Source: Lachnospiraceae bacterium
GTDB lineage: Bacteria > Bacillota > Clostridia > Lachnospirales > Lachnospiraceae
Length of the DNA: 33,965 nucleotides
Direction: 5' to 3'
Assembly: GCA_017443065.1 (NCBI GenBank)
Contig: JAFSPF010000007.1
Location: 1-33,965, forward strand
In this document: positions 7,603 through 30,900 of the stretch, piece after piece
Numbering within the stretch: position 1 is the first letter of the stretch
How the letters are laid out: each line of letters begins with the position of its first letter
Notes under the pieces: model-generated
What the model was told of the DNA's origin: nothing
The model's input: only the letters and a program-made list of their open reading frames with translations
Databases searched by the model: none
Made by a program: the position numbers and the translations under genes

Positions 7603-11451
<3,849 letters not shown>

Positions 11452-11721: not shown

Positions 11722-11849
11722 CCGCCGCGCCGCGTGACCGCATGGATTCCGGGGAGCGTCTTGTTCGCCACGGAGCCGAGACTACAGGCTCGGCGGAGTG
11801 TTTGGCGAAATCAGAGCGAGACGGAATCATCGGTCACGCAGGCAGGCGG
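11722..11849 (+). repeat. Palindromic repeat element, copy 1 (intergenic)
   Basis: A 128-bp imperfect palindrome. Outer arms are CCGCC/GGCGG, then CGTGACCG (11731-11738) with CGGTCACG, then GATTCCG with CGGAATC, then TTCGCC with GGCGAA, and a central hairpin GCCGAG-ACTACAGG-CTCGGC. It starts 13 bp after the tpiA stop, so it would fold in the tpiA 3' untranslated RNA. It shares 70 of 71 bases with copy 2 in trmD over 11760-11830 and is clearly related to copy 3 in carB. It has no transposase gene. Boundaries are set from the shared ends of copies 1 and 2. Confidence 0.85.
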
Positions 11850-11861
11850 TATCATGTCTAC

Positions 11862-12608
11862 TTAATAGTTCACAATCTTCCCAAACTCTTCCTTCAGGCT
11901 CGCACCCCCGACAAGCCCGCCGTCGATGTCAGGCTTTGCGAAGAGCTCCGCCGCGTTGCCGGCATTGACCGAGCCGCCGTACTGAACGCGGATGGCCTCG
12001 GCAGTGGCGTCGTCATAAATCTCACGGATGAGATCGCGGATGGCCTTGCAGACCTCCTCCGCCTGATCGGACGTGGCCGTCTTGCCGGTGCCGATCGCCC
12101 AGATCGGTTCGTAGGCGATCACCGCCGTCTTCGCCTGCTCCGCCGTCACGTTCAGGAAGGCGATCTTGATCTGCTTGCGGACCCAGTCGATCGTGATGCC
12201 CTGCTCGCGCTGCGTCAGGGTCTCGCCGCAGCAGACGATCGGGGTGATGCCGGTCTCAAAGGCCTTCAGGACTTTTTTGTTGACCGTCTCATCCGTCTCC
12301 GCAAAGTATTCCCTGCGCTCGGAGTGGCCGATGATCACGTATTTCACGCCCGCTTCCTTTAACATGCCGGGGGAAATCTCTCCCGTGAAGGCGCCCTTGT
12401 CCTCAAAGTACATGTTTTCCGCGCCGATCTCAATGTTCGTTCCCTTTACGGCCTCCACCGCGGGGATGATGTCGATCGCCGGCACGCAGAACACCACGTC
12501 CACGGCATCGCTCTTCACGAGCGGCTTTAAGGTCTCGATCAGCTTGACCGCCTCGGAGGGCGTCATGTTCATTTTCCAGTTGCCTGCGACAATTTTGCGT
12601 CTTGACAT
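11862..12608 (-). CDS. tpiA: Triose-phosphate isomerase
   Basis: Interconverts dihydroxyacetone phosphate and glyceraldehyde 3-phosphate in the cytosol. The 248-residue length is normal. The catalytic residues are present: Lys12 in GNWKMN, His95 in IGHSERRE and Glu167 in [14 protein letters not shown]; the phosphate-binding GGSVNAGN follows. An AGGAGGT site precedes the start. It is 14 bp behind pgk, as the last gene of gap-pgk-tpiA. A palindromic repeat follows directly after its stop. Confidence 0.98.
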
Positions 12609-12622
12609 TGTTTTACCTCCTG

Positions 12623-13846
12623 TTATCGATCATCCGCCGCCACAACGCCCGGGAGCTCCTTGCCTTCGAGGAATTCCAGCGAAGCGCCGCCGCCGGTGGA
12701 AATGTGGCTCATCTTGTCCGCGAAGCCCATCTGGTTGACGGCCGCAGCGCTGTCGCCGCCGCCGATGATGGTCGTGGCATCCGTATCCGCCAGCGCCTGC
12801 GCGACGGCCTTCGTGCCTGCCGCCAGCACCGGATTCTCGAAGACGCCCATCGGTCCGTTCCAGACGACGGTCTTTGCGTTCTTTGCCGCATCCGCGTAAA
12901 GCGTGCGCGTTTTTTCGCCGATGTCCAGGCCCTGCATGTCCGCGGGAATGGCCGTGGCGTCCACCGTCTGCACCTCGATCGACGGGTTATCGATCGGATC
13001 CGGGAAGGATTTCGCGATCACGGTATCGACCGGGAGCAGCAGCTTCTTGTCGTTCTTTTCCGCCTTTTCGATCATTTCCTTACAGTAATCAATCTTCGTG
13101 TCATCCACGAGGGACTGTCCGACCTCATGACCCTGCGCCTTTAAGAAGGTGTAGGCCATGCCGCCGCCGATGATGAGCGTATCGCATTTCTCCAGCAGGT
13201 TGCTGATGACGTTGAGCTTGTCCGCCACCTTCGCGCCGCCTAAGATGGCGACAAAGGGACGCACCGGGTTTTCCACCGCGTTGCCCAGGAAATCAATCTC
13301 CTTCTGCATCAGATAGCCGACCGCGCAGGCGCCGCCTTTTTCGCGGACAAACTTTGTCACACCCTCCACGGAGCAGTGCGCACGGTGCGAGGAGCCGAAG
13401 GCATCACAGACATAATCATCACAGAGTTCCGCAAGCTCCCTGGAGAAGGCCTCGCCGTTTTTCGTCTCCTCCGGACGGGAGCGCGTGTTCTGCAGAAGGA
13501 TCACGTCGCCCTCTCCCATCGCGTCCACGGCCGCCGTGGCCTCCGGACCCGTCACGGTGTCGATCGCGACGAACTTCACTTCCTTTCCGAGCTTTTCGGA
13601 AAGGCGCTTCGCGACCGGTGCAAGGGACTCTCCCTCGTTCGGGCCGTTCTTGACCTTGCCTAAGTGCGAGCAAAGGATCACCTTGCCGCCGTCCTTCATC
13701 AGCTTTTCGATTGTCGGCAGTGCCGCGACGATGCGCGTTTCGTCCGTGATCTCCCCGCCCTTCAGCGGCACGTTGAAATCACAGCGCAGCAGCACGCGGC
13801 GTCCCTTGACGTTGATATCATCAATGCTTTTTTTGTTCAAACCCAT
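12623..13846 (-). CDS. pgk: Phosphoglycerate kinase
   Basis: Transfers phosphate from 1,3-bisphosphoglycerate to ADP. It is 407 residues, slightly longer than the usual ~395. The substrate-binding DFNVPL is at residues 24-29 and the nucleotide-binding GGGDSAAAV plus [13 protein letters not shown] are near the C-terminus. TTGGAGGACAG precedes the start. It lies between gap (56 bp upstream) and tpiA (14 bp downstream). A strong hairpin with a T tract lies in the gap-pgk spacer and its T tract abuts the pgk binding site, so pgk expression may be lowered relative to gap. Confidence 0.98.
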
Positions 13847-13857
13847 ATCCTGTCCTC

Positions 13858-13892
13858 CAAAAAAGAAGGCCCGGCCCTTTGGGCCGGGCCTT
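13858..13892 (-). terminator. Rho-independent terminator or attenuator between gap and pgk
   Basis: A perfect 12-bp stem, AAGGCCCGGCCC/GGGCCGGGCCTT with a 3-base loop (13866-13892), is followed on the minus strand by CTTTTTT. It lies 10 bp after the gap stop codon. The T tract runs straight into the GGAGG of pgk, so the element could end most transcripts after gap or protect the gap mRNA 3' end. Confidence 0.8.
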
Positions 13893-13902
13893 GTGTCAAC
13901 CC

Positions 13903-14937
13903 TTATTTCAGTTCCGAGAAGTATTTGATCGTCCTGACCATCTGGCTGGTGTAGGAGTTTTCGTTGTCATACCAGCTGACGACCTCGACCAGGGTCTTGC
14001 CGTCGCCCGCGGGCGTGACCATCGTCTGCGTGGCATCGAAGAGCGAGCCGTAGGTCATGCCGATGACATCGGAGGAAACGATCTCATCTTCGTTGTAGCC
14101 GAAGGTCTCCGGATCGGAAGCCTTCTTCATGGCCGCATTGATCTCTTCCTTGGTGACGCTCTTGTTGACGACCGCAAAGAGGAGGGTCGTGGAGCCGGTG
14201 GCCGTCGGCACGCGCTGTGCGGCACCGATCAGCTTGCCGGACAGCTCCGGGATGACCAGGCCGATCGCCTTGGCGGCGCCGGTGGAGTTCGGAACGATGT
14301 TCAGCGCGGCCGCGCGGGACCTGCGCAGATCACCCTTGCGCTGCGGGCCGTCCAGGACCATCTGGTCACCGGTGTAGGCGTGCACCGTGCACATAATGCC
14401 GGATTCGATCGGCGCAAAGTCATTCAGCGCCTTGGTCATCGGCGCGAGGCAGTTCGTCGTGCAGCTCGCGGCGGAGATGATCGTGTCTTCCGGCTTTAAG
14501 GTCTCATGGTTGACGTTGTAAACAATCGTCGGCAGGTCATTGCCCGCAGGTGCGGAGATAACAACCTTGCGCGCGCCGGCGTCGATGTGCGCCTGCGATT
14601 TTTCCTTGGAGGTGTAGAAGCCCGTGCACTCCAGAACGACGTCCACCTTGAGCTCACCCCAGGGGCAGTTCTTTGCATCGGCTTCCTTATAAATCTTGAT
14701 CGTCTTGCCCTTGACGGTGATCGTGCCGGCATCATCATCCGCGGTGATATCCCCGACATGATCCACATCCACGTAACGACCCTGCGTCGAGTCATACTTT
14801 AAGAGATGTGCCAGCATCTTGGGGGAAGTCAGGTCGTTGATTGCGACGATCTCATAACCGTCCGCCTCAAACATCTGACGAAACGCCAGTCTGCCGATTC
14901 TGCCGAAACCGTTGATTGCTACTCTTACGTCTGCCAT
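13903..14937 (-). CDS. gap: Glyceraldehyde-3-phosphate dehydrogenase, type I
   Basis: Oxidises glyceraldehyde 3-phosphate to 1,3-bisphosphoglycerate. The start is placed at 14937 ([15 protein letters not shown]), preceded by AGGAGG; the frame is open 27 codons further but without a binding site. The product is 344 residues. The NAD-binding NGFGRIG is at 10-16, Asp35 favours NAD over NADP, the nucleophile Cys159 is in SAASCTTNC and the catalytic partner is His186. It is the first gene of gap-pgk-tpiA, with a promoter in the divergent gap before the PHP phosphatase gene. Confidence 0.97.
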
Positions 14938-15023
14938 GTGAAAAACCTCCTGTGAATTATATTGTAGAAACACTGTGGTACGACCTAAGCGCCGCCGCGG
15001 GCATGACCGCGTCGGCAAATCCT

Positions 15024-15052
15024 ATTGTAGCGCGATTTTCGGCAAAAAGCAA
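15024..15052 (-). promoter_or_regulatory. Candidate promoter for gap-pgk-tpiA
   Basis: Minus strand TTGCTT (15047-15052), 17 bp, TACAAT (15024-15029), giving a leader of about 80 nt. A TATGAT (15063-15068) on the plus strand could be the -10 of the divergent phosphatase gene, but its -35 is poor. Confidence 0.5.
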
Positions 15053-15088
15053 CAAATTATGGTATGATAGTTGCCGGAGGTTTTACAG

Positions 15089-15961
15089 ATGATTACGGCT
15101 GACTGTCACGTACATTCGCATCATTCGGGGGATTCCGAGGCGCCCATGCGGGCGCTGGTCGAAGAGGCCCTGCAGAAGGGGCTGGATACGCTGACCTTTA
15201 CGGAGCACCTGGATGTTGATTTCCCGACAACGCATGAGCCCGCGGGCACCTTTGATCTGGATGTGCCGCCCTATCTTGCGGAGCTTCAGTCTTTGCAGGC
15301 GGAATACGCGGGGCGCATTTCGCTTCTCTTCGGCACGGAGATCGGCCTGCAGACACACTGCACGGAGGCAAACCGCGCCTTTGTGCATGCGCATCCCTTT
15401 GATTTCGTGATTGCCTCCCTGCATCTGGCCTACGGACAGGACCCTTATCATAAGGAATACTGGCAGGAGATGCAGCGGCGTGCCGCCGCGCGCGTTCCGG
15501 GCGCGGATGCGGAGGTCCTGCGCACCGAAGCGGAGCGCGAGGGCATGGCCCTGTATCTTGCAGCGACGCTGGAGAATCTGCAGTGCTATGAGGATTACGA
15601 TGTGCTGGGGCATCTCGATCTTGTGAACCGCTATTTCGGGGACGGCCGCACGGCCTATGACCACGCCTCCCATGCGGCGGTGATCGATGAGATTCTGCGG
15701 CTTCTGGTTGCAAAGGACAAGGGGCTGGACTGCAACACGAATCTGATCTGGAAATACGGCGCGGAGGAAATGAATCCCTCCCGCGAAATCCTTGCGCGCT
15801 TCCGCGAACTGGGCGGAAGGATCATCACCTTCGGGACGGACGCGCATGAGGCGGCGCATGTCGGCGAGGCCCTGGACAGCGCAAGGGCGATCGCCAGAAG
15901 CTGCGGCTTTACGGAGTATTGCGTGTTCCGGGGCAGGGTGCCGGAATTTCGACCATTATAA
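15089..15961 (+). CDS. PHP-domain phosphatase, histidinol-phosphatase (HisJ/HisK) family
   Basis: Metal-dependent phosphoesterase of the PHP superfamily; relatives remove phosphate from L-histidinol phosphate in histidine synthesis. The start ATG at 15089 (MITADCHVHSHHSGDS) follows GGAGG at 15076-15080; upstream codons back to a TTG are rejected. The protein is 290 residues, a little above the usual ~265. PHP metal-ligand motifs are visible: HVHSHHS (7-13), TEHLD (38-42), GTEIG, ASLH, GHLDLVNRY and TDAHE near the C-terminus. No other his genes are nearby, so the substrate is inferred from family only. It is divergent from gap and 67 bp before the sugar genes. Confidence 0.85.
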   Translation: MITADCHVHSHHSGDSEAPMRALVEEALQKGLDTLTFTEHLDVDFPTTHEPAGTFDLDVPPYLAELQSLQAEYAGRISLLFGTEIGLQTHCTEANRAFVHAHPFDFVIASLHLAYGQDPYHKEYWQEMQRRAAARVPGADAEVLRTEAEREGMALYLAATLENLQCYEDYDVLGHLDLVNRYFGDGRTAYDHASHAAVIDEILRLLVAKDKGLDCNTNLIWKYGAEEMNPSREILARFRELGGRIITFGTDAHEAAHVGEALDSARAIARSCGFTEYCVFRGRVPEFRPL

Positions 15962-15999
15962 TACGTAATTACGTGTTCGGTATTTCGTTTATTTAGCGG

Positions 16000-16005
16000 T
16001 GTAAT
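16000..16005 (+). promoter_or_regulatory. Weak candidate -10 box before the nine-carbon sugar genes
   Basis: TGTAAT, 18 bp after a poor -35 match (TTCGGT, 15976-15981). The same spacer contains a perfect 12-bp palindrome ACGTAATTACGT (15963-15974) directly after the phosphatase stop, which could be an operator or nothing. Confidence 0.25.
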
Positions 16006-16028
16006 ATCGTCACATCAGGGAGCATATC

Positions 16029-17306
16029 ATGCACACACTTGCCATCATCACCGCGCGCGGGGGGAGCAAACGGATCCCGCGCAAAAACATCCGGGATTTC
16101 TGCGGAAAGCCCATGATCGCATGGTCCGTCGGGGCGGCGCTTGAAAGCGGCGTTTTTGATACGGTCATGGTTTCGACGGATGATGAGGAGATCGCGGAGA
16201 TCGCAAAGCGCTGCGGCGCGGCGGTCCCCTTTCTGCGCAGCGCGGACACGGCGGATGATTTTGCGACGACGGCGGATGTGATGCAGGAAGTGCTTGCGCA
16301 GTACGAAGCGCAGGGGGAACGTTTTGATCTCGTCTGCTGCCTCTATCCCACCGCACCCTTTGTGAAGGCCGGGGTGCTGCGTGATGCATATGAGCGTTTT
16401 GCGAAAAGCGACGCGGACTCTTTGATTCCCGTCGTGCGTTTTTCCTATCCCGTGCAGCGCGCCTTTGTGGAGGAGGACGGGCTGCTCGTCATGGCGCATC
16501 CGGAGTACCGCGATACGCGTTCACAGGATCTGACACCGCACTTTCACGACGCGGGGCAGTTCTATTTTTTCCGTCCGGAGAGCCTGCGTAAATACGGGAG
16601 CTTCCTGCAGGGGAAGATTTTGCCGCTGGAGCTGCCCGAAACAAAGGTACAGGACATCGACACGGAAGAGGACTGGGAGATCGCGGAGATGAAATTCCGT
16701 CTGCTGCGGGAGGCGGAGGGAGGCGCTTCTGTTGCCGGACCGGGCGTTTCGGCTACGGGCGGGGGAGCGTCTGCGGATGAGGCAAGGCCAGCACGGCACG
16801 GCGCACAGCCGGCGGATGAGGCAGAGCCCGCACGGCACGGCGCACAGCAGGCGGATGCACCGCGGCTGACATTGCGTGAAGCCGCCATGACGGATGCTTC
16901 GCTCTTGTATGCCTGGCGCATGGAGCCTGCGACACGTGCCGCCTCTTTTCACGCGGAGGATTTTTCTTACGAATCACATCTTGCCTGGCTGGAACAGCGT
17001 CTGCCGCGACCGGGGATCTGGATCCTGCTTTGCGACGGCGTTCCGGCGGGAACGATGCGTGTCGAAACGGAAGGAAGCGAAGCGCAGCTTTCTTATTCCG
17101 TCGATCCCGCGTACCGGGGGCGCGGCTTTGGTGCTGCCCTTCTGCGGCTGACGGAAGAAAAAATAAAAACAACCTTTGCCGGCAGCGTGCACAGCCTGGT
17201 CGCGCAGGTCAAAAAAGACAATCTGCCCTCCCGGCGGATGCCGGAAGCCTGCGGTTTCACGGCGGAAGAAAAGGACACGTACATCGAATACCGCAAGACA
17301 ATATAA
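16029..17306 (+). CDS. pseF: CMP-nonulosonic acid (pseudaminic-type) synthetase fused to a GNAT acetyltransferase
   Basis: 425 residues in two parts. Residues 1-229 form a CMP-sugar synthetase: ARGGSKRIPRKN at 9-20, the STDDEEIAE segment near 49-57 and the DAGQFYFF region near 174-181, a style closest to PseF, which activates pseudaminic acid with CTP. Residues 280-425 form a GNAT fold, with acetyl-CoA loop RGRGFGAA at 363-370. It resembles the acetyltransferases that work in pseudaminic or legionaminic acid synthesis (PseH-like). Between them lies a Gly/Ala-rich linker (about 230-279) with two copies of a 13-residue repeat. The start has AGGGAG about 9 bases upstream. It is followed by pseI and pseG, supporting the pathway. 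The exact sugar is inferred; related CMP-legionaminate enzymes cannot be excluded. Confidence 0.85.
   Translation: MHTLAIITARGGSKRIPRKNIRDFCGKPMIAWSVGAALESGVFDTVMVSTDDEEIAEIAKRCGAAVPFLRSADTADDFATTADVMQEVLAQYEAQGERFDLVCCLYPTAPFVKAGVLRDAYERFAKSDADSLIPVVRFSYPVQRAFVEEDGLLVMAHPEYRDTRSQDLTPHFHDAGQFYFFRPESLRKYGSFLQGKILPLELPETKVQDIDTEEDWEIAEMKFRLLREAEGGASVAGPGVSATGGGASADEARPARHGAQPADEAEPARHGAQQADAPRLTLREAAMTDASLLYAWRMEPATRAASFHAEDFSYESHLAWLEQRLPRPGIWILLCDGVPAGTMRVETEGSEAQLSYSVDPAYRGRGFGAALLRLTEEKIKTTFAGSVHSLVAQVKKDNLPSRRMPEACGFTAEEKDTYIEYRKTI
16773..16859 (+). repeat. 39-bp tandem repeat encoding the inter-domain linker
   Basis: Two nearly identical 39-bp units (16773-16811 and 16812-16850) and the first 8-9 bases of a third. 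Each encodes 13 residues, ADEARPARHGAQP and ADEAEPARHGAQQ. The repeat is in frame and forms the middle of the linker between the synthetase and GNAT domains. It is too short and too few in copy number for a CRISPR array. Confidence 0.85.
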
Positions 17307-17366
17307 CACAGAGGATACCGGAATGTGTCACTCCGGTGATTTCACGGGCACAAAGGAAGCAGTCAC

Positions 17367-18431
17367 ATGAATCACAACATCCGAATCGGCAAAAACAACA
17401 TCGGCGCGGATGCGCCGGTCTATATCATCGCCGAGATGAGCGGCAATCACAACGGCGAACTCCACCGCGCCATGCGCATCATCGAGGAGGCCGCGGCCGC
17501 CGGCGCGAACGCGGTCAAGCTGCAGACCTATACCGCGGACACGATCACCCTGGACTGCAACACGCCGGATTTCCGCATTGATTACGGCTCTCTCTGGGAC
17601 GGGCGCACCCTGCATGATCTCTACCGCGAAGCGGCCACGCCCTGGGAATGGCAGCCGCAGCTCGCCCTGCGCGCGCGGGAGCTCGGCATGGACTGCTTCT
17701 CCTCTCCCTTTGACTTTACCGCCGTGGATTTCCTGGAGGACATGCGGGTTCCGGCTTACAAGATCGCCTCGTTTGAAATCACGGACATCCCCCTGATCCG
17801 CAGGGTGGCAAAAACCGGAAAGCCGGTGATTATTTCCACCGGCATTGCGCACCGGGAGGAGATTGCGGAGGCCGTTGCGGCCTGCCGGGACGCGGGCAAT
17901 GAGCAGATCATTCTTTTGAAATGCTGCTCCGCCTACCCCGCGCCCTATGAGGACATGAACCTCCGCACCATCCCGCAGCTCGCGGAGGACTTTGACTGTC
18001 TTGCCGGGCTCTCCGATCACACGCCGGGGCACACGGTGCCGGTGGCCTCGGTCGCCCTGGGGGCCTGCGTGATCGAAAAGCATCTGACGCTTTCCCGCGA
18101 AGACGGCGGCGTGGACAGCGCCTTCTCCATGGAGCCCGCGGAGTTTAAGGAAATGGTGCAGGCCGTCCGGGACGCGGAAAAGGCGCTCGGCCGCGCCACT
18201 TATGACCTCACAAAAAAGCAGGAGGACAGCCGCTGGCTGACCCGCTCCCTCTATATCGCCGCCGACATGAATGCCGGCGACGTGCTGACGGCGGACAATC
18301 TGAAGAGTGTGCGTCCCGGGCACGGCATGCACACGCGTTACTATGACGATCTGCTCGGAAAAACGGTGAACCGCAACCTGCGCGCCGGCACGCCGATGGC
18401 CGCAGAATACATCGACGGGTACTCCGCATGA
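17367..18431 (+). CDS. pseI: Pseudaminic acid synthase (NeuB family)
   Basis: Condenses a 6-deoxy-di-N-acetyl-hexose with phosphoenolpyruvate to give the nine-carbon sugar. 354 residues, the usual size. A TIM-barrel N-terminal domain begins with IIAEMSGNHNGE (20-31). Further NeuB hallmarks are KLQTYTADTITL, KIASFEI, GLSDHTPGH and EKHLTLSR. A C-terminal SAF/antifreeze-like domain covers about 290-350. An AGGAAG site precedes the ATG. It overlaps pseG by 4 bp (ATGA). The AEMSGNHNG and TYTADTIT segments favour PseI over sialic acid synthase NeuB, an assignment made by eye. Confidence 0.88.
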   Translation: MNHNIRIGKNNIGADAPVYIIAEMSGNHNGELHRAMRIIEEAAAAGANAVKLQTYTADTITLDCNTPDFRIDYGSLWDGRTLHDLYREAATPWEWQPQLALRARELGMDCFSSPFDFTAVDFLEDMRVPAYKIASFEITDIPLIRRVAKTGKPVIISTGIAHREEIAEAVAACRDAGNEQIILLKCCSAYPAPYEDMNLRTIPQLAEDFDCLAGLSDHTPGHTVPVASVALGACVIEKHLTLSREDGGVDSAFSMEPAEFKEMVQAVRDAEKALGRATYDLTKKQEDSRWLTRSLYIAADMNAGDVLTADNLKSVRPGHGMHTRYYDDLLGKTVNRNLRAGTPMAAEYIDGYSA

Positions 18432-19627
18432 GCCGCATCTTCTTCCGCGCGGATGCGAACGCGCAGATCGGCGGCGGGCATATGATGCGCTGCCTGACGA
18501 TCGCGGAGGCGCTGGGCGCTGCGGATATCGTCTTCGTGTGCGCGGATGAGGAGAGCGCCAGGCTGCCGCGGCAGGCGGGGTTTGAGACGCGGGTGCTCGG
18601 GACGGATTATCGCGACATGGAGGCGGAGGTGGCTGCACTGGTTTCAATGTGTCTTGAGCCGCCTGCCTCGATGGACGACGTCCCTGACACAATCATTGTG
18701 GATAGTTACCACGCTACGGATGTGTATCTCTGTGCGTTGCGTGAGCATGCGCGTGTCGTATTGATCGAGGATGCGCTGACGCATGCAAGACCTGCGGACG
18801 TCATCATCAACTACAATCTGCATGCGTCGGGATGTGCCTATCAGGACGCGTATCCTTCTGGCGCGAGAGATGCGGAAAGCGGCACAGCGGTCAGGCCGCC
18901 GCTGCTGCTCATCGGCTCGCGGTATGCACCGGTGCGCGAACAGTTTACAGAATGTCGGGCCGTCATCAGGGACGAGGTGCGGGACATCCTGATCTTGTGC
19001 GGTGCCTCGGATCCGCTGAATGCGGCCACGCAGATTTATCACGCGCTTTCTGCAAACCTTATCTCCGGGCGGGCGACCGGCGTGCATACCGGCGCCCCAT
19101 CGATGGCGTCGGATCACTCTTCTTTGACATCAACAGGCGTGCTGTGTCATCCGCGTTTTCACATCGTCTGCGGTGCGTACAATCCGCACATGGATACACT
19201 GCGCGAACTCGCGAAGCAGGACGACAGGCTGATTCTGCATGAACGGGTGGAGGATATGGCGGCGCTCATGTGCGACTGCGATCTCGCCGTCACGGCCGCA
19301 GGCTCCACGATCTATGAACTGTGTGCGGTGGGACTGCCCTTCGTGGCCTTTTCCCTCGCGGACAACCAGGACCCGATTCTCTCCGCCCTCGAGGCAGAGG
19401 ACATCGCATCCTGCGCGGGTCTCTTTTACCGTGACGCCGCCGGGGCGCTGCAAAGCATTTCCCGTCATGTCACGGAACTGTCTTCGGATGTTTCCCTGAG
19501 AAAAAAAAGAAGCGAGGCGCAGCGCCTGCTCGTCGACGGACAGGGGGCCGCGCGCATCAGCCGGGAGATCCTGCACGGCGCATCCGACGGCTCCGCGGAC
19601 AGCCTCCGTGCAAGCGGAAGCCTGTAA
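18428..19627 (+). CDS. pseG: UDP-2,4-diacetamido-2,4,6-trideoxy-beta-L-altropyranose hydrolase (PseG)
   Basis: Releases the free sugar from UDP to feed PseI. GT-B-like fold: the N-terminal loop GGGHMMRCLTIAEAL has the expected catalytic His18, IIVDSYH is at 89-95, and the C-terminal nucleotide-binding stretch TAAGSTIYELC...SLADNQ is at 289-314. At 399 residues it is longer than typical (~280-340). The extra length appears as loops near 72-87, 138-160 and 213-241 and as a tail after 380. The stretch 18640-19200 is less GC-rich than its surroundings. It overlaps pseI by ATGA and ends 18 bp from the convergent rimM. The last gene of the cluster; pseB and pseC are not in the window. Confidence 0.88.
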   Translation: MSRIFFRADANAQIGGGHMMRCLTIAEALGAADIVFVCADEESARLPRQAGFETRVLGTDYRDMEAEVAALVSMCLEPPASMDDVPDTIIVDSYHATDVYLCALREHARVVLIEDALTHARPADVIINYNLHASGCAYQDAYPSGARDAESGTAVRPPLLLIGSRYAPVREQFTECRAVIRDEVRDILILCGASDPLNAATQIYHALSANLISGRATGVHTGAPSMASDHSSLTSTGVLCHPRFHIVCGAYNPHMDTLRELAKQDDRLILHERVEDMAALMCDCDLAVTAAGSTIYELCAVGLPFVAFSLADNQDPILSALEAEDIASCAGLFYRDAAGALQSISRHVTELSSDVSLRKKRSEAQRLLVDGQGAARISREILHGASDGSADSLRASGSL

Positions 19628-19645
19628 CGAAGGCGGCCGTGTCCC

Positions 19646-21929: not shown

Positions 21930-21956
21930 TGTCATACCTCCTATCGCTAAGCATCC

Positions 21957-22282: not shown

Positions 22283-22295
22283 ATTGATATCATAA
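22274..22295 (+). promoter_or_regulatory. Tandem 11-bp operator-like repeat over the SPFH promoter
   Basis: Two direct repeats, TGATATCATAT and TGATATCATAA, identical in 10 of 11 positions and one helical turn apart. Each contains the perfect palindrome TGATATCA. The first covers the -10 box and the second the likely transcription start. Closely spaced short sites like this are typical of ribbon-helix-helix repressors, and one is encoded in the operon. Confidence 0.5.
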
Positions 22296-22318
22296 AGATT
22301 TCTGTGGAGGAAAACGAC

Positions 22319-23398
22319 ATGACAGAAAAAGTGCTTACCAAAAACAAAAACGGCATGGCGATGCTGCTCGTCTGCATCGCGGAATATCTGATCGGCATTG
22401 CGATCTTCGTGACCGGCATCGTGCTGCTGTCCTCCGGGGAAAACCCGGATCTTCCGATCAACCGGCTCCATACGGTGCCGGGCGGCATCCTGCTTGCGAT
22501 CGGCATTGTCTGGCTGTTCCTCGGCTGGATTCCCTTCTGCGGGCTGAAGGTGCTGCGGCCGCAGGAGGCGCTGGTGATCACGCTCTTCGGCAAATACACG
22601 GGCACCTTAAAGGACGCGGGCTTTTATTACGTGCATCCCTTCAGCACCGCGCTGAACCCGGCGGCGGGGACGAAGCTGCGGCAGTCCGGCGAATCGGAGC
22701 GCGCCAAAGGGACGGCGGAGTCCCTTCTCCTCGGCGGGGCGAACGCCGCCCTGCAGCAGGCAGCCGCGGCAAAGTACGCAGCCGGCAAGAAGATTTCCCT
22801 CAAGGTGATGACCTTAAGCAACGCGCGCCAGAAGATCAACGATGTCCTCGGCAATCCGGTGGAGGTCGGCATCGCCGTGATGTGGCGCGTGGTGGATACG
22901 GCCAAGGCCGTGTTCAACGTGGACAATTACATGGAATACCTGGACCTGCAGTGTGATTCCGCGTTGCGTGACATCGTGCGGCTCTACCCTTACGACGTGG
23001 CGCAGGGCGTCGACACGACAGGCGACGGCCAGGAGGATGACGGTTCTCTTCGCGGCTCCTCCACCGTTGTTGCACAGCGGATCAAAAACCGCATCCAGGA
23101 AAAGGTAACGGAGGCCGGCATCGAGATCATCGACGCCAGGATCACCTACCTCGCCTACGCGCCGGAGATCGCGGCGGCCATGCTGCAGCGCCAGCAGGCG
23201 AGCGCCATCGTGGATGCGCGCAAGCTTATCGTGGACGGCGCGGTCGGCATGGTGGAGATGGCGCTGGACCGCCTCGGCGAAAAACAGATCGTGGACCTTG
23301 ATGAGGAACGCAAGGCCGCAATGGTGTCGAATCTGCTGGTGGTGCTCTGCGGCAACGCGGAGGCGCAGCCCATTGTGAACACAGGGAGCCTGTATTAA
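22319..23398 (+). CDS. SPFH/band-7 domain membrane protein
   Basis: 359 residues. The start ATG at 22319 ([12 protein letters not shown]) follows GGAGG at 22306-22310; a GTG at 22304 overlaps that site and is rejected. There are two transmembrane segments, about 14-37 and 54-74, then an SPFH domain (about 76-310) from [18 protein letters not shown] to the helical region [22 protein letters not shown] proteins form membrane scaffolds; the role of this subfamily is not known to me. An Ala/Gly-rich insertion (about 120-157) interrupts the first part of the domain. Its stop overlaps the start of the ribbon-helix-helix gene by one base (TAATG), so the two are translationally coupled. Confidence 0.9.
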
Positions 23399-23592
23399 TG
23401 GCCGAAAAGAAACAAATCCCGCTCCGCCTGAGCGAAAAATTATACAACGCCATCGCCGCCTGGGCGGAGGATGACTTCCGCTCCGTCAACGGACAGATCG
23501 AATATCTGTTGACGGAGTGCGTCAGGCAACGCAAGAAGGACGGCAAATACGTCGGGCAGCACATCGACGAGCCGCCGGAACTGGATGTGTGA
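23398..23592 (+). CDS. Small Arc-like ribbon-helix-helix protein
   Basis: 64 residues. The pattern [19 protein letters not shown] then [20 protein letters not shown] fits a beta strand and two helices of the Arc/MetJ/CopG fold, and the tail is acidic. Such proteins are dimeric DNA binders. It begins on the last base of the SPFH stop and is followed closely by the DUF1648 gene, so all three are probably one operon. It could repress the operon through the tandem sites at 22274-22295. A purely structural role, as a partner of the SPFH protein, is possible too. Confidence 0.8.
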
Positions 23593-23593
23593 T

Positions 23594-24121
23594 ATGCGGA
23601 TCAGGATTATGTTTTCAAAAATCAGCATGTCTGAGAGGCGGATTACATTTGCGTTAGTCCTCAACATCCTGAGCATCCTGCTGCTTATCGCGACGACGAT
23701 CATCGTCATCGTGCGGTACAACATGCTTCCCGCGGACGCGCAGGTTCCGACGCACTGGGGCGCTTCGGGCGAGGCGGATGCCTGGAGCGGCAAGGGCTCT
23801 CTCTTTGTGCCGCTGGCGCTGGCTTATTTCATGTGCCTGATTACTATGCCGCTGTCCTTTATGAAGCCCTACGAGATGCTGAATATGCCGGGCACCTTAA
23901 AGGAGCGCGCCTTCGCCAAAAACCCCGTCGCCTTCAACAACACGGTGCGGGGCTTCCTGGCGCTTATGTCCTTTACCGTCGTCTTTGTCTTCAGCTGGTC
24001 GGCCATCGCGAGCAGTTTCCAGCTGCAGCTCGGCATCTGGTTTCTCCCGGTCGTCATCTTACTGGTCGTCGTACCGTTCGTTGCCCTGATCGTGCGGCTG
24101 GTGTTGATCGCGAGGGGCTGA
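23594..24121 (+). CDS. DUF1648-domain membrane protein
   Basis: 175 residues from the ATG at 23594; starts at 23585 and 23609 are nearly as plausible because no binding site is strong. Four hydrophobic segments are visible, at about 17-41, 68-92, 116-140 and 143-173. After the first comes LPADAQVPTHWGASGEADAW, the pattern of the DUF1648 family, often found in proteins near transporters or SdpI-type immunity proteins. No function is assigned. It is two bases after the ribbon-helix-helix gene and appears to be the last gene of that operon, since a new promoter follows. Confidence 0.75.
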   Translation: MRIRIMFSKISMSERRITFALVLNILSILLLIATTIIVIVRYNMLPADAQVPTHWGASGEADAWSGKGSLFVPLALAYFMCLITMPLSFMKPYEMLNMPGTLKERAFAKNPVAFNNTVRGFLALMSFTVVFVFSWSAIASSFQLQLGIWFLPVVILLVVVPFVALIVRLVLIARG

Positions 24122-24134
24122 GGCGTCGTAACGG

Positions 24135-24164
24135 TTGATTCTCCCTGTCCTTCGGGAGTATAAT
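24135..24164 (+). promoter_or_regulatory. Promoter for the small membrane protein gene
   Basis: TTGATT (24135-24140), 18 bp, TATAAT (24159-24164). The spacer itself contains CTCCC...GGGAG, a small inverted repeat. The predicted transcript starts about 15 nt before the start codon. Confidence 0.55.
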
Positions 24165-24184
24165 TCTTCTTCGGAGGAAGGAAC

Positions 24185-24412
24185 ATGCATCCTTATGTGA
24201 AAAAAATGATCGCGCCGCTGGCGATCACCTGTCTGACAGTGATTCTGTATTCCGTATACATTGTTCTCGCCATCCGCTATGCCTTCCCGACGCTTCTGCA
24301 GGTTGCGGTGACGGTAGGTGCACTGGCGATGATCGGCGGTATGATTTATATTTGCTACACGCGATACAAAGAGATCATGTCCGGTGAGGAAGATGATCTT
24401 GACAAGTATTAA
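24185..24412 (+). CDS. Small membrane protein of unknown function
   Basis: 75 residues, started by ATG after GGAGGAAGGAAC. Two transmembrane segments are predicted by eye, about 9-31 and 37-58, with a short basic linker and an acidic tail (GEEDDLDKY) probably in the cytoplasm. I do not recognise a family. It is 32 bp before the YbjQ-family gene on the same strand and may be co-transcribed with it. Confidence 0.7.
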   Translation: MHPYVKKMIAPLAITCLTVILYSVYIVLAIRYAFPTLLQVAVTVGALAMIGGMIYICYTRYKEIMSGEEDDLDKY

Positions 24413-24444
24413 GATTCCACAAAAGGCAAAGGAGGTAACACAGC

Positions 24445-24756
24445 ATGCTGTACGTCACAACCGATTACATTCCCGGAAAAGAAGTGGAAGCACTCGGACT
24501 GGTCAAGGGGAGCACCATCCAGTCGGTGAACGTCTTCAAGGACATCGGCGCCGGCCTGAAAAACCTTGTTGGCGGCGAGCTGACCAAGTATAACGAGATG
24601 ATGGACAAAGCGAGAGCCCTGGCCACCAAGCGCATGGTAGAGGAAGCCGAACGGCTGGGTGCCGACGCGATTATCGGCATGCGCTACTCTTCCGCTTCCG
24701 TCACGCAGGCCGCCGCGGAAGTGATGGCCTACGGCACCGCGGTCAAATTCCGCTGA
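24445..24756 (+). CDS. YbjQ/UPF0145 family protein
   Basis: 103 residues beginning MLYVTTDYIPGKEVEALGLV, with the family's signature ending in EAERLGADAIIGMRY and an internal region (about 25-50) with DIGAGLKNLVGGELTKY. Members form small oligomeric beta-alpha proteins sometimes called heavy-metal-binding domains; the role is unknown. An AAGGAGGT binding site precedes the start. Its 3' end overlaps the 3' end of trmD on the other strand by 14 bp, and no terminator separates them. Confidence 0.88.
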   Translation: MLYVTTDYIPGKEVEALGLVKGSTIQSVNVFKDIGAGLKNLVGGELTKYNEMMDKARALATKRMVEEAERLGADAIIGMRYSSASVTQAAAEVMAYGTAVKFR

Positions 24757-25648
24757 TTCTGTCCAATAAGTCCGGGCGCATGGTGCGGGTGCGTTCCAGG
24801 GATTGTTCCCTGCGCCATGCGTCAACTTTGGCGTGATCGCCGGAGAGCAGGATCTCCGGCACACGGCGCTCGCGCCAGATCTCCGGCCGCGTGTACTGCG
24901 GGTATTCCAGCAGTCCGTCATCAAAGGATTCCGTCTGCGCACTCTCCTCATTGGACAGCACGCCCGGCACCAGACGCGCCACCGCGTCCATCAGTACCAT
25001 CGCCGGCAGCTCTCCGCCGGACAGCACATAATCCCCGATCGAAATCCGCTCCGCGTCGATCTCCTCCAGCACGCGCTCATCCACACCCTCATAATGCCCG
25101 CAGAGCAGGATGATGTGCTCCGCCTGCGCGAGCTCGCGCGCGGTCTGCTGACTAAAGACTTTTCCCTGTGGTGTCAGGTAGATCGTGCGGAGCGTTGTGT
25201 TATGCCGCCTGTCTGCGTGCTGCATGATTCCGTCTCGCTCTGATTTCGCCAAACACTCCCCCGAGCCTGTAGTCTCGGCTCCGTGGCGAACAAGCCGCTC
25301 GCCGGAATCCATGACATCACGCGACGCGGCGGCCGAATACTGTGCATCGTGAGCGCCATTGCGCGAAGCGGAATCATCGGCCGTCGAGGCAGGCGGTTCA
25401 CCATCTGTCCCGGACGCCTTCGACAGCACATGCCTGTAACAGTCGTACACCGGCTGCGCGCGCATCAGCATCCCCGCGCCGCCGCCGTAGGTGTAGTCAT
25501 CCACCTTGTGATGTTTTTCGTCATCGGAGAAATCCCGGATCTGATAGGTGTCCATTGCAATCAGGCCGCGCTCCAAGGCGCGGCCGATCACGGACGTGTG
25601 CATCACGTCAAACATTTCCGGAAAAAGGGTCATGATGTGAAAATGCAT
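24743..25648 (-). CDS. trmD: tRNA (guanine37-N1)-methyltransferase with an in-frame palindromic-element insertion
   Basis: SAM-dependent enzyme that methylates G37 of tRNAs, dimeric, cytosolic. The start is at 25648 (MHFHIMTLFPEMF), overlapping the khpA stop by one base (TAATG). It is 301 residues against the usual ~240-250. The N-terminal part (1-80, with DDYTYGGGAGMLM) and the knot region (154-232, IYLTPQGKVF and CGHYEGVDERV, then IGDYVLSGGELPAM) look normal. Between them, about residues 81-153 have no counterpart in the family and are encoded by one full and one partial copy of the repeat. The insertion lies just before the SAM-binding knot, in a loop that varies in other TrmD proteins. 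The C-terminus is short. The frame also runs upstream through khpA, but that is a shadow. Confidence 0.95.
   Translation of the reverse strand: MHFHIMTLFPEMFDVMHTSVIGRALERGLIAMDTYQIRDFSDDEKHHKVDDYTYGGGAGMLMRAQPVYDCYRHVLSKASGTDGEPPASTADDSASRNGAHDAQYSAAASRDVMDSGERLVRHGAETTGSGECLAKSERDGIMQHADRRHNTTLRTIYLTPQGKVFSQQTARELAQAEHIILLCGHYEGVDERVLEEIDAERISIGDYVLSGGELPAMVLMDAVARLVPGVLSNEESAQTESFDDGLLEYPQYTRPEIWRERRVPEILLSGDHAKVDAWRREQSLERTRTMRPDLLDRISGI
25204..25333 (-). repeat. Palindromic repeat element, copy 2 (inside trmD)
   Basis: 130 bp, in the orientation opposite to copy 1, bounded by GCCGCC and GGCGGC. It codes for TrmD residues about 106-149, including DSGERLVRHGAETTG. In the copy 1 orientation it shares two exact runs of 34 and 36 bp with copy 1, separated by one mismatch. 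That makes it the closest relative and probably a recent copy. Confidence 0.85.
25343..25396 (+). repeat. Partial palindromic repeat beside copy 2
   Basis: Right-hand part of an element in the copy 1/copy 3 orientation: GCGCGAAGCGGAATCATCGG followed by the conserved tail GGCAGGCGG. It codes for TrmD residues about 85-102, with DDSAS as in CarB. It probably marks an older insertion at the same site. Confidence 0.65.
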
Positions 25649-25875
25649 TATTTGATATCCACGTCTACGCGCAGATTCTCCTTTGTGGACGCCGCCTTGA
25701 CCACGTTGCGGATGGCCTTGGCGATGCGGCCCTGCTTGCCGATGACCTTGCCCATGTCCGCCTGTGCGACATGCAGCGTCACGAGCACGCTGTTTTTCTC
25801 GCGCTCTTCCGTCACCACGACTTCGTCCGGATTGTCCACCAGCGCCTTTGCAATGACTTCGACTAACTCTTTCAT
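25648..25875 (-). CDS. khpA: KH-domain RNA-binding protein KhpA
   Basis: Small RNA-binding protein, 75 residues, start MKELVEVIAKALVDNPDEV after AAGGAGCGCCC. The single KH domain is visible, with the GxxG loop in VIGKQGRIAKAIRNVVKA. In Firmicutes KhpA pairs with KhpB and affects cell division and small-RNA biology. It sits between rpsP (14 bp) and trmD (one-base overlap), where rimM would normally follow. Confidence 0.95.
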   Translation of the reverse strand: MKELVEVIAKALVDNPDEVVVTEEREKNSVLVTLHVAQADMGKVIGKQGRIAKAIRNVVKAASTKENLRVDVDIK

Positions 25876-25889
25876 AGGGCGCTCCTTCC

Positions 25890-26135
25890 TCAGCCTTTTT
25901 TGATGCCGGCCTGTTTGAAGAGCTTGCTGACGGTGTTCGTCGGCTGCGCGCCCTGCGAAAGCCACTTCTTCGCCTTTTCCTCATCAATCTTTACCGTGCC
26001 CGGATCCGTGTTGGGATCATAGGTGCCGATCTGCTCGATGAAGCGGCCGTGAATGGGCTCTCTGGAATCGGATACGATGATTTTGTAGAAGGGAACCTTC
26101 TTCTTGCCGATTCTGCTTAATCTGATCTTGACCAT
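25890..26135 (-). CDS. rpsP: 30S ribosomal protein S16
   Basis: 81 residues, [20 protein letters not shown], with the conserved [19 protein letters not shown]. Structural protein of the 30S body. AGGAGGATACAAAGCA precedes the start. It is 35 bp behind ffh and 14 bp before khpA. Confidence 0.98.
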
Positions 26136-26170
26136 TGCTTTGTATCCTCCTGTATCTTTATAGTAATGAA

Positions 26171-27529
26171 TTAAAAACCTTTGAAACCTCTTCCGCCGAG
26201 TCCGCCGAGCATCCCCGCGAGCCCTCTTTTGCCGCCGCCGAACTGCTTCATCATCTTGGAGGTCTGCTCAAACTGCTTGATGAAGCGGTTGACCTCCGCG
26301 ATGTCATTGCCCGAACCCTTTGCGATGCGGGCCTTGCGCGTCGGACTCATGAGCTTGGGATTCTGCCGCTCCTTCGGCGTCATGGAGAGCACGATCGCCT
26401 CCATCCTCGCCAGCTGCTTTTCATCGGGGAGCATACTCTCGTCGATCTTCGGACCCAGGCCCAGCATGCCTAAGATGGAACCCATGCCGCCCATGCCGCG
26501 CATTTGCTTCATGCTGGCAAGATACATTTCGAAATCCATCTTGCCCTTGCGCAGCTTCTCCTCCATCCGGCGCTCTTCTTCCTCTTCCATCTGGATGTTG
26601 GCTTCCTGCACCTTATCGATCAGCGTCAGCACGTCACCCATGCCGAGGATGCGGTTTGCCATGCGGTCCGGATAAAACTGCTCCAGATCAGAAAGCTTTT
26701 CGCCCATACCGACGAAGAGGATGGGCTGTCCCGTGACGGCCCTTGCGGAAAGTGCGGCACCGCCCCTGGTATCGCCGTCCATCTTGGAAAGCACAAGGCC
26801 CGTTAAGCCGATGCGCTGATGGAAGGTCTCCGCCACGTTGACCGCTTCCTGACCGGTCATCGCGTCCACCACGAGGAGCGTCTGGTGCACCTCCACGGCC
26901 TCCTTGATGTCCGCGAGCTCCTGCATCAGCTCTTCATCAATCTGCAGGCGACCGGCGGTATCCAGGATCACGACGTTTTTGCCGTGCTCCTTTGCATAGA
27001 CCATGGACTGCTTTGCGATTTCCACGGGCGAAATGTCCGTGCCCATCTCAAAACAGTCCACCTCCACCTTCTGCGCGTTGACCTTCAACTGCTCGATGGC
27101 CGCGGGACGGTAAACGTCACAGGCGACCAAAAGCGGCGCCTTGCCCTTCGAGCGGATCTTAGCCGCGATCTTGGCGGCGGAGGTTGTCTTACCGGAGCCC
27201 TGCAGGCCGCACATCATGATGACGGTCGTGGCGCCGCTCTTTAACTGCAGCTCCGTCGTCTCCGATCCCATGAGGGAGGTCAGCTCTTCGTCAACGATCT
27301 TAATCACCATCTGCGCGGGATTGAGACCGTTCATGACGTCCGCGCCGACGGCACGCTCCTGCACCGTGTTCACAAACTGCTTGACCACCTTGAAGTTCAC
27401 GTCCGCTTCGAGCAGCGCCATTTTGACTTCCTTGCAGGCAGCCTTGACATCCTCCTCCGAAAGGCGGCCCTTGCCGCGGAGGTTTTTGAAAACGTTTTGC
27501 AGTTTTGCGGTTAAGGATTCAAATGCCAT
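26171..27529 (-). CDS. ffh: Signal recognition particle protein Ffh
   Basis: SRP54 GTPase that recognises signal sequences on the ribosome and docks with FtsY. 452 residues, the usual length. An N-terminal helical bundle is followed by the G domain: P-loop GLQGSGKTT (108-116), DTAGR (190-194) and SKMD (248-251). The Met-rich M domain (about 300-452) includes [13 protein letters not shown] and ends Gly-rich. Its ATG overlaps the ylxM stop by one base (TAATG), so the two are coupled. rpsP follows. Confidence 0.98.
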
Positions 27530-27837
27530 TACAGTTCCTTCCGGATCCTTTTCGTCAGGCGCGCCGCGTCCGGGGAGGCGGCGTCAATCTCATCACAGAG
27601 AGCATCGATCGTTTTGAAACGCCGGATCATGCCCAGTTTTTCTTCGTATTCCGCAAGGGTCTTTGTGGAGCGCTTCAGCAGATCGGCGACGCCCTGTCGG
27701 GAGATGCCGCGGTTTTCTGCAATCTCCGCAAGCGACAGGTCATGATACACCGTGTCCTCGTAGATCTCACGCTGCCGGTCCGTCAGCAGTGCCCCGTAAA
27801 AATCATAGAGCATCCCTTTGTCGACGATTGTTTCCAT
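27529..27837 (-). CDS. ylxM: YlxM family SRP-associated helix-turn-helix protein
   Basis: 102 residues from METIVDKGMLYDFYGALLTD; the start at 27837 has AGGGAG upstream, and an ATG 20 codons earlier is rejected as part of the promoter. The sigma-70 region 4-like HTH reads LSLAEIAENRGISRQGVADL. YlxM is a conserved partner of ffh in Firmicutes and may stimulate or sense SRP GTPase activity. It is the first gene of ylxM-ffh-rpsP-khpA-trmD. Confidence 0.93.
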   Translation of the reverse strand: METIVDKGMLYDFYGALLTDRQREIYEDTVYHDLSLAEIAENRGISRQGVADLLKRSTKTLAEYEEKLGMIRRFKTIDALCDEIDAASPDAARLTKRIRKEL

Positions 27838-27868
27838 AAAAAAACTCCCTGCCAAAACAGCAAGGAGT

Positions 27869-27897
27869 ATCATAGCACGCCGTCCGCCCGCTGTCAA
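27869..27897 (-). promoter_or_regulatory. Sigma-A promoter of the ylxM-ffh operon
   Basis: Minus strand TTGACA (27892-27897), exactly 17 bp, TATGAT (27869-27874); 11 of 12 consensus bases. The transcript would start about 25 nt before ylxM. Confidence 0.75.
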
Positions 27898-27915
27898 GTG
27901 TTATCACTTGACAGC
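27890..27915. promoter_or_regulatory. Perfect palindrome over the -35 box of the ylxM promoter
   Basis: GCTGTCAAGTG-TTAT-CACTTGACAGC, an 11-bp perfect inverted repeat with a 4-base loop. It lies 17 bp after the carB stop and contains the ylxM -35 box. It could be an operator or the carB 3' hairpin; it lacks the T tract of a normal terminator. Confidence 0.6.
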
Positions 27916-27932
27916 CTTCCGCATCACAAAGC

Positions 27933-30900
27933 TCATGCACCGTGCCAGGACTGGAGGGACTGCAGGGTGCCGGCCCCCTGCCGCTGCACGTATTGCAGCC
28001 CTTCCGCGGCGGCCTTTGCGGCGGCCATGGTGGTCAGGTACGGGATGCGCAGCTTGATCGCGTTTTTGCGCAGATAGGAATCATCATGTGCGCTCTGCTT
28101 GCCGACCGGGGAATTCACGATCAGCTGGATCTCTCCGTTCGTCATGTAATCGATGATGTTGGGTCTGCCCTCATAGATCTTTTTGACGCGCGTCACCGGG
28201 ATGTCACAGCTCTCGATCAGATCGCAGGTGCGTCCCGTCGCCATCAGTTGAAAGCCGCAGTCATGGAAGATCTTCGCGACCTGCGGCACCTCCGGCTTGT
28301 CCTTGCGGTTGACGCTGATCAAGACCGTGCCGCTCTCCGGCAGCGGCGTGCCGGAGCCCTCAATCGCCTTGAGGTAGGCTTCGCCCGCGGTCTTGGCAAG
28401 GCCCAGGACCTCACCGGTGGAGCGCATTTCCGGTCCCAGGAGCGGATCCACCTCCGGGAACATGTTGAAGGGGAAGACCGCTTCCTTGACGCCGTAATAC
28501 GGAATGTCCTTCCGCTGCAGCGAGGGCACCGGGGAAGGCTCTCCCGTAAGCGGCGCGCAGATCACGTCGATCGCGAGCGGCACCATGCGGATGCCGCAGA
28601 CCTTGGACACCAGCGGCACCGTGCGCGAGGCCCTGGGATTGGCTTCCAGACAATAGACGATATCATTTTCGATCGCGTACTGCATGTTCATCAGACCGAC
28701 GACATGCATCTCCTCCGCGATCTTGCGCGTGTATTCCTCGATCGTGCGCAGGAGGTCGCCCGGAATATGACGGGAAGGAATGATGCAGGCGGAGTCACCG
28801 GAATGAATGCCCGCGAGCTCAATATGCTCCATCACCGCGGGCACAAAGGCGTGATCGCCGTCCGCGATCGCGTCCGCCTCGCACTCTAAGGCATGCTCTA
28901 AAAAGCGGTCGATCAGGATCGGGCGGTCCGGCGTGACGCCGACGGCCGCCTTCATGTAATCCGACATGCTCTCGTCATCATAGACCACCTCCATGCCGCG
29001 GCCGCCCAACACATAGGACGGGCGCACCATCACGGGATAGCCGATGCGCTTTGCGATCGCAAGCGCCTCCTCGACGGTGGTGGCCATGCCGCTCTCCGGC
29101 ATCGGAATGCCGAGCTTGTCCATCATCACGCGGAACTGGTCGCGGTCCTCGGCAAGATCAATCACCTCCGGCTGCGTGCCGAGCAGCGTGACGCCGTTTT
29201 CCTTGAGGGAATTCGCCAGGTTCAGCGGCGTCTGTCCGCCGAACTGCGCGATCACGCCCGCCGGGTTTTCGTGCCGGTAGATCGAAAGCACATCCTCCAG
29301 CGTCAGCGGTTCAAAGTACAGACGGTCGGAGGTGTCGTAATCCGTCGAGACCGTCTCCGGATTGCAGTTGACGATGATGGTCTCAAAGCCTAAGCGGCGC
29401 AGCTCCTGTGCCGCATGGACGCAGCAGTAATCAAACTCAATGCCCTGCCCGATTCTGTTCGGTCCCCCTCCTAAGATCATCACCTTGCGGGATGCGCCTT
29501 CCGCCGCCGGAGCAGGCGGCGTGTCCGTCGCCGCGTACGTCGAATAATAATACGCGCTGTCCTCGGTTCCGGAAACATGCACGCCCTCCCAGCGCTGCAC
29601 GATCCCTGCCGCCTCCCGCGCCTCACGCACTTCCTGTTCCGTGCAGTGGAGAATCTGCGCGAGATACTTGTCAGAGAAGCCGTCTGCTTTAGCGCGTTGA
29701 AGGATCTCTGACGAAAGCGTGAATTCATCTGTCGTGCCCTGCGACTGCATGTTTTCCGCTGAGTGGCTTGTGCGCCACGAAGCCGAGACCTCAGGCTCGG
29801 CGGAGTGCTCGGCGCAATAGAGCGAAGCGGAATCATCAGTCGCAGAGTCCGGCAGATGCATCATAGCCTCCTCTTCCTCCACAAGCTCCCGCATCTGCTC
29901 CACAAACCACGCCTTCACCCCCGTCGCGCCGTGAATCTCCTCCACCGTCGCTCCCTTGCGCAACGCCTCGTACATGATGAAATGCCGCTCGCTCGACGCT
30001 TCGGAAAGCATCTGCATCAGCTCATCTTTTGTGCGCTCATGAAAGTCTTTGACAAAGCCTAAGCCGTAACGGTCCTTTTCCAAAGAGCGGATCGCCTTCT
30101 GGAACGCTTCCTTGTAGGTCTTGCCGATCGCCATCACCTCACCGACGGCGCGCATCTGCGTGCCGAGATGATCCTCCACGCCCTTGAATTTCTCAAAGGC
30201 CCAGCGCGCGAATTTGACGACGACATAATCCCCGTCCGGCACGTATTTGTCCAGCGTCCCGTACTTGCCGCAGGGAAGCTCTTTTAAGGTCAGTCCCGTC
30301 GCGAGTTTGGCGGAAACGAGCGCAATCGGAAAGCCCGTGGCCTTTGAGGCCAGCGCCGAAGAACGCGAGGTGCGCGGATTGATCTCGATGACAACCACGC
30401 GGTCAGACTTCGGATCATGCGCAAACTGCACGTTCGTGCCGCCGATCACGCCGATGTGCTCCACGATTTTGTAAGCCTGCTCCTGCAGCTTCTTTTGCAG
30501 CTCTTCCGAAATCGTCAGCATCGGCGCGGTGCAGAAGGAATCCCCGGTGTGCACGCCCACGGGATCCACGTTTTCGATGAAGCAGACCGTGATCATGTTG
30601 TTCTCTTTGTCACGCACGACCTCCAGCTCCAGCTCCTCCCAGCCGAGGATGGATTCCTCCACGAGCACCTGCCCGATCAGCGAGGCCTGCAGGCCGCGCG
30701 CGCAGACGGTCTTTAATTCTTCGCGGTTATACACAAGGCCGCCGCCGGCGCCGCCCATCGTGTAGGCCGGACGCAGCACAACCGGGAAGCCCAGCTTGTC
30801 CGCGATCGCAAGCGCCTCCTCCACCGTGTAGGCGACCTCGCTCCTTGCCATCTCCACGCCGAGGCTTTCCATCGTCTCCTTAAACTCGATGCGGTCCTCG

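Follow-up and report, generated by a model that had tools for sequence, protein, structure and literature searches.

Palindromic repeats in bacterial genomes

Reports of protein-coding palindromes concern Rickettsia, Wolbachia, and one archaeon, as far as the available text of the sources goes. The Rickettsia palindromic elements (RPEs) are described as palindromes of ~150 bp that have integrated in frame in many genes, where they add peptides to the encoded proteins (PMC10969869). Those of Rickettsia africae are treated in PMC2694212, and PMC2996958 cites further coding palindromes, from Wolbachia and Methanocaldococcus. REPs are 20–40 bp in length, carry a GTAG or CGTC tag, and are reported from other phyla (PMC3733652). 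In the mitochondria of Nematomorpha, a mirrored evolution of the arms of coding palindromes is described (PMC6649704). PMC13155455, in which hairpins of 118,019 genomes were surveyed, mentions neither Lachnospir nor Clostridi nor Butyrivibrio in its available text.

The element treated here was found in a stretch of 33,965 nt (the window, which is contig C25) of a draft genome of 2.83 Mb in 144 contigs, 94% complete, from a rumen bacterium of the genus Butyrivibrio as drawn by GTDB. It is one lineage of a Lachnospiraceae-wide hairpin family that is apparently undescribed. The Rfam 14 paper reportedly names a skipping-rope RNA. No gathering match to Rfam 15 was obtained in the window, and at E≤1 the two matches among 12 loci did not fall on the element. 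The original prediction, in which no family with this sequence was known to be described in Clostridia, thus agrees with Rfam 15 and the open-licence literature, where none was found.

The parallel with RPEs, also drawn in the original prediction, holds for a palindrome of similar size (128 or 165 bp and 33 copies, compared with the multicopy RPE palindrome of ~150 bp) that, as read from the sequence, lies in open frames of unrelated genes at 14 of 30 loci. The element differs from RPEs in belonging to another phylum and to rumen bacteria, whereas RPE hosts are intracellular parasites, in having a bulged tip that is conserved across genera of one family, in arms of up to 122 bp that are homogenised within copies in one genome (G191), and in the nesting of copies inside tips. 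By analogy, the element may work like RPEs and is yet better kept as a separate family, the two having been compared by description and not by sequence. MITEs are small inverted-repeat elements without a transposase gene. The element resembles prokaryotic MITEs in all three respects, the absence of a transposase noted at the outset being borne out by a length of 128 bp that cannot accommodate such a gene, and differs from them in that neither conserved termini nor, by eye, a target duplication were seen. With REP/REPIN sequences and their RAYTs it shares the nature of multicopy palindromes often located near gene ends and sometimes in genes; it differs by its 128-bp unit, by ends of the form CCGCC...GGCGG (read by eye in most copies of the host genome), and by a host genome without a match to Y1_Tnp. 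The Nematomorpha palindromes likewise have perfect arms that evolve together inside coding genes; there, however, the arms encode conserved host sequence, while the element is inserted and dispersed.

Copies in the window and in the host genome

The window contains three full copies and one fragment, within a base of the positions first given, and the following features were delimited:

11722..11849, plus strand: copy 1, full 128-bp element, intergenic, between tpiA and rpoB
11751..11822, plus strand: tip (core) of copy 1, short form, match to tip model R2 with E 1.3e-15
25205..25332, minus strand: copy 2, full 128-bp element, in trmD, read in sense
25232..25303, minus strand: tip (core) of copy 2, R2 match with E 4.0e-13
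25333..25397, plus strand: element fragment in trmD, adjoining copy 2, with its 3' arm at 25363-25396
29729..29855, plus strand: copy 3, full 127-bp element, in carB, read in antisense
29758..29828, plus strand: tip (core) of copy 3, R2 match with E 4.9e-14
24743..25648, minus strand: trmD, host gene of copy 2
27933..31277, minus strand: carB (large subunit), host gene of copy 3
7603-11478 and 11862-12608: rpoB and tpiA, the genes flanking copy 1

The element is a near-palindrome of 128 bp, and copies 2 and 3 are 91% and 78% (122 aligned) identical to copy 1, respectively. Compared with 200 dinucleotide shuffles per strand (six tests for the three copies), folding z-scores on the two strands were −6.2/−7.2 for copy 1, −3.3/−4.0 for copy 2, and −5.1/−5.3 for copy 3; in one test a single shuffle out of 200 reached the folding of the element, and in the other five none did. 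All three placements (one between genes, one in trmD, one in carB) hold, the location of copy 2 in trmD included, with its ends corrected from 25204-25333 to 25205-25332. The frame through trmD reads the element in sense and that through carB in antisense, and both are open, so that the genic copies can indeed be read from opposite strands. The 3' arm of the fragment is preceded by letters that resemble, by eye, the apical hairpin of a second form of the element: besides the 128-nt form there is one of ~165 nt with an additional apical hairpin.

Another palindrome of the window (31354-31470) has 33-bp arms around a terminator-like hairpin (z −14.1) and no tip. One arm consists of the final codons of an ORF at 31448-32062, CAP-like by eye, and the other of their inverted copy; it looks like a terminator hairpin that was extended outward through template switching.

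In the host genome, BLASTN with copy 1 gave 40 full and partial matches at E≤1. A covariance model built from 20 copies of this genome (R1) found 30 copies at E≤2.2e-14 plus one weak one, which scores 1.4e-24 with a tip model (R2) built from 30 sequences (9 from this genome, 21 from genomes of the same genus); R2 found 33 copies, its training sequences matching by construction and those of other genera not. The element thus belongs to a dispersed family, as had been proposed, with further copies throughout these searches. One contig of 25.5 kb (C118) carries at least five full copies, and C118 and C65 begin with an element (L004, L029). Breaks in the assembly therefore appear to coincide with copies, and the genome likely holds more than the 33 found. 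A target site duplication was not seen by eye at 23 copies of this genome, one of them without a left flank.

Insertions in genes and their absence in relatives

Thirty loci of the host genome were screened for frames that are open across the whole element. Family support was sought for ten translated frames with Pfam and for nine of these and TrmD with NCBIfam, and CarB is supported by its homologues. Fourteen of the 30 copies lie in open frames of supported genes, ten being read in sense and four in antisense, and no placement in a supported gene resulted for the remaining 16 loci. The hosts are DUF6020 proteins (two), an MBL-fold hydrolase, YfhO (two), YgfK (three), a response-regulator/DegV/Hpt protein, a histidine kinase/Hpt protein, a DUF512 radical-SAM protein, a DUF362 protein, TrmD, and CarB, the weakest case being DUF362, where the model covers one side of the element only. 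TrmD is an essential protein; to our knowledge, most of the other hosts in this genome are not known to be essential, and the view that the element enters essential genes stands for TrmD.

In 13 of the 14 genic copies the phase at the tip anchor is 0, which amounts to one frame per strand. The exception, L046, has at its two ends the frame of the remaining sense copies (by eye), and an antisense copy (L034) has the common frame at the tip and a different one at its entry. The sense frame that is used is open in 19 of 30 copies and frame 2 in 22 of 30, so avoidance of stops alone fails to explain the choice of frame. In genes, the insert would be plainly translated as a spacer; splicing or bypassing does not need to be invoked, the genic copies being open.

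The alignments of TrmD and CarB called for by the original prediction gave clean presence and absence. Of the 61 genus genomes, 56 gave a TrmD match; in each of the 55 relatives among them the match to the query is interrupted at the insert, and the insert is absent from 29 of 29 aligned relatives, in which the loop is variable in length. At E≤1e-20 the host genome (94% complete) has no TrmD match other than this trmD gene. The CarB insert is likewise absent from 29 of 29 aligned relatives, and the relatives examined thus do not share the two insertions. A further case was found in G402, where a copy lies 3' of a gene whose counterpart in G482, the closest relative that was found for this site, is 90% identical and has no element after it. 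By eye, no element was seen within the 190-260 or fewer bases past that gene in 16 further inspected loci and G482, the more distant of which may be paralogues. The right-hand part of the query matches another contig of G482, and this empty site is therefore anchored on the left gene only. A pre-existing hairpin was not demonstrated at any empty site.

In G482 (L307), a long terminator-like hairpin with ~30-bp arms occupies, by eye, the place after the same gene. A further before/after pair, at ygfK, was set aside, as the copies of the host genome and of G078 lie in the same loop at a different point. The insertion points of the two species differ slightly within this loop (L046, L051), and some protein loops may thus be repeat targets.

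A conserved tip across the Lachnospiraceae

When sequences are compared between species, the tip is the conserved part of the element, and arms and ends vary. Its consensus is approximately GCCAYGGAG-nnGAGACC, an apical hairpin, and GGCTC-nnCGGARTG-yyyGGC, with conserved bulge letters and internal loops and with paired positions that covary. Changes on both sides were observed for 18 of 44 pairs in the alignment of the host genome and for 22 of 29 pairs in the cross-species alignment. The covariation score was reached by none of 500 shuffles, a control in which related rows may exceed shuffles without structure. Structures slid along the alignment scored 0.015-0.048 versus 0.263 (host genome) and 0.038-0.110 versus 0.501 (cross-species). 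The count of further pair types was not extreme, being reached by 14 and 28 of 500 shuffles.

A BLAST survey of 60 relatives had suggested a species-specific element, which was overturned by the covariance models. With R1, 22 of 61 genus genomes were positive; with R2, 23 of 397 family genomes at E≤1e-4 and three of 391 class genomes, all three in Lachnospiraceae (host genome included each time; nine candidates scored each for R2). A deeper R2 search of 11 positive genomes gave 28, 31, 5, 4, 33, 15, 30, 8, 12, 71, and 4 copies, and none in the expected negatives G015, G001, and G053. A search of genome contigs with a tip pattern matched 33 loci, whose titles give Butyrivibrio, Lachnospiraceae bacterium, or Hungatella. 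The proposed search of relatives by BLASTN and covariance models thus led to a family that spans the Lachnospiraceae; its tip is conserved, and its arms are far longer in some genomes. Carriage by viruses or plasmids was rejected. One strict pattern gave no viral contigs; two from a looser pattern were not matched by R2 (E≤0.01) and were taken as chance. BLASTN searches of plasmids and phages with the G402 element, and of plasmids with copy 1, found nothing.

Nine cores surveyed in G315 lie between convergent genes (six), between tandem genes (two), and in a short ORF (one). A survey of 62 loci, for which a crude ORF caller was used and the core was assumed at base 1501, placed 35 between tandem, 9 between convergent, and 3 between divergent genes, 5 at a contig edge, 6 in ORFs of <200 aa, and 4 in longer ones. 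Three apparent genic cases were rejected: L061 overlaps no real gene as read, a jag-like ORF ending nearby on the opposite strand (by eye), L109 lies upstream of a DHFR-like ORF (by eye), and the core of L122 is not at the assumed place. The sole supported genic copy outside the host genome is L051, in ygfK of G078. The orientation of copies relative to replication, inspected by eye among the copies listed for two genomes, gave no clear picture.

Arms and nesting

In G191 (71 copies), 20 copies were measured, and their arms pair over 68-122 bp beyond the model. The arms are 98% self-complementary within a copy and 57% identical between copies, with a median between-copy identity of 0.57 versus 0.48 for shuffled sequence in the 60 letters adjoining the tip. 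The 1724 paired columns contain 35 mismatches (17 A.C, 15 G.T, 3 other) and 6 gaps, and 11 of the 20 copies are perfect. A.C mismatches are as frequent as G.T, which argues for copying of arms at the DNA level over selection on RNA. We read the arm pairing as a reflection of such arm-to-arm copying, with separate selection on the tip. Pairing is not uniform across the family: many copies of G315 pair well over ~12-38 bp, and pairing is imperfect in G402 and in the host genome. Copies of G402 have near-identical cores and a length of ~330 bp (by eye).

In the host genome, copies are nested inside the tips of other copies. The outer 5' halves stop at position 46-58 of the element (the exact point varies with the aligner), and where the 3' half was matched (an array on C59) the outer element resumes at 91; two outer 3' halves on C114 are plain by eye; outer 3' halves at L014 and L009 were recognised by eye and not by BLAST. 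As the outer halves break off and resume around the tip, the inner element replaces the outer tip, with short linkers between. The linkers are often ACCTTGAAG before and CTCACA after the nested copy. Some G315 copies are flanked by like letters (AACCTTGATG, CACAACCT, by eye), and the linker letters may thus be the true ends of the element. One G191 locus (L208) shows, by eye, two arm layers.

Possible mechanisms

The reading that we favour, with a probability of roughly 0.55, is that of a mobile hairpin that is non-autonomous, represents one lineage of the Lachnospiraceae family, and has its arms rebuilt by copying. The transposing unit would be a folded strand, which a candidate enzyme acting in trans may recognise through the bulged tip. 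New copies would land in hairpin tips, at gene ends or, in the lineage of the host genome, in tolerant protein loops. The second arm would then be rebuilt from the first, by fold-back synthesis or template switching, leaving arms that are identical within a copy while copies diverge. Mobilisation by a RAYT was rejected for the host genome (94% complete), which has no match to PF01797 (Y1_Tnp) at E≤0.001, whereas 5 of 14 control genomes were positive.

A serious competitor, which we nevertheless consider rather unlikely, is an ordinary double-stranded MITE that is moved by an unrecognised cut-and-paste transposase and whose arms are kept alike only through generic template switching at palindromes. 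Its size, palindromy, and dispersion would fit, and template switching has been proposed to perfect quasi-palindromes (PMC6649704, available text). The tipless palindrome of the window, whose arms extend over a terminator and a gene end, and the many tipless palindromes of G402 also agree with a general process of this kind. In ten stretches around G191 copies (195,548 bases), however, 12 palindromes whose arms are ≥25 bp long and 12 tips were counted, and each of these palindromes holds one tip; without a tipless one, arm correction does not appear to be general there. Long palindromes thus accompany the tip in the G191 stretches. Six G315 stretches with 11 tips have a tip in seven of nine long palindromes, one of the others spanning two opposite copies and one being tipless. 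In four G402 stretches the tip is present in 5 of 24, and this genome has another palindromic repeat. A MITE would, moreover, leave the interspecies conservation in the tip instead of the variable arms and ends to be accounted for, as well as the lack of a duplicated target (by eye).

Near the element in G402 (L306, L242-L245) there are a second repeat of ~235 bp and many tipless palindromes of ~117 bp, and some of the nearby repeats have the end motif AAATTAGTATTT in common (by eye).

Improbable, in our view, is a multicopy structured RNA (an sRNA or terminator-like) whose fold is under RNA selection and which was spread by duplication. The strong covariation, the conserved internal loops, and the largely intergenic location in other species (judged with the crude ORF caller) speak for it. 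Selection on a folded RNA should give more G.U than A.C, and this is the case in two Butyrivibrio sets (33/6 in A2 and 28/7 in A4), where the G.U cells are concentrated, 24 in two columns of A2 and 19 in three columns of A4. In two family-wide sets, whose alignments were fitted to the model, G.U is not commoner than A.C (13/13 and 19/18), nor is G.T in the G191 arms (15/17). The lack of a relevant Rfam 15 match and the fourteen copies within open gene frames further weigh against an RNA. Chance, an assembly artefact, or contamination can practically be dismissed: the draft assembly has 144 contigs, of which two begin with the element, yet it holds 33 copies, two single-contig genomes carry 28 and 31, and the insertion boundaries at the protein level in TrmD and CarB as well as the shuffle controls argue otherwise.

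Implications

Beyond the mobile hairpin element with rebuilt arms, a bolder proposal, which we put forward tentatively and with the odds against it, is a new class of transposable hairpins: the bulged tip would serve both as recognition structure and as preferred landing site, one arm would be resynthesised in each round, palindromes would grow as nested layers, and, in this Butyrivibrio, new peptide segments would be fed into proteins.

We know of no described mechanism by which protein-coding palindromes move. With tens of copies in several genomes, named Butyrivibrio strains, and a conserved tip that may be used as bait for an enzyme, the question of movement becomes testable, as it does through species-specific sites that are absent in relatives. 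Palindromes of ~250-350 bp are unstable in E. coli, and the arms of G191 are a natural record of bacteria that build and keep palindromes of this length.
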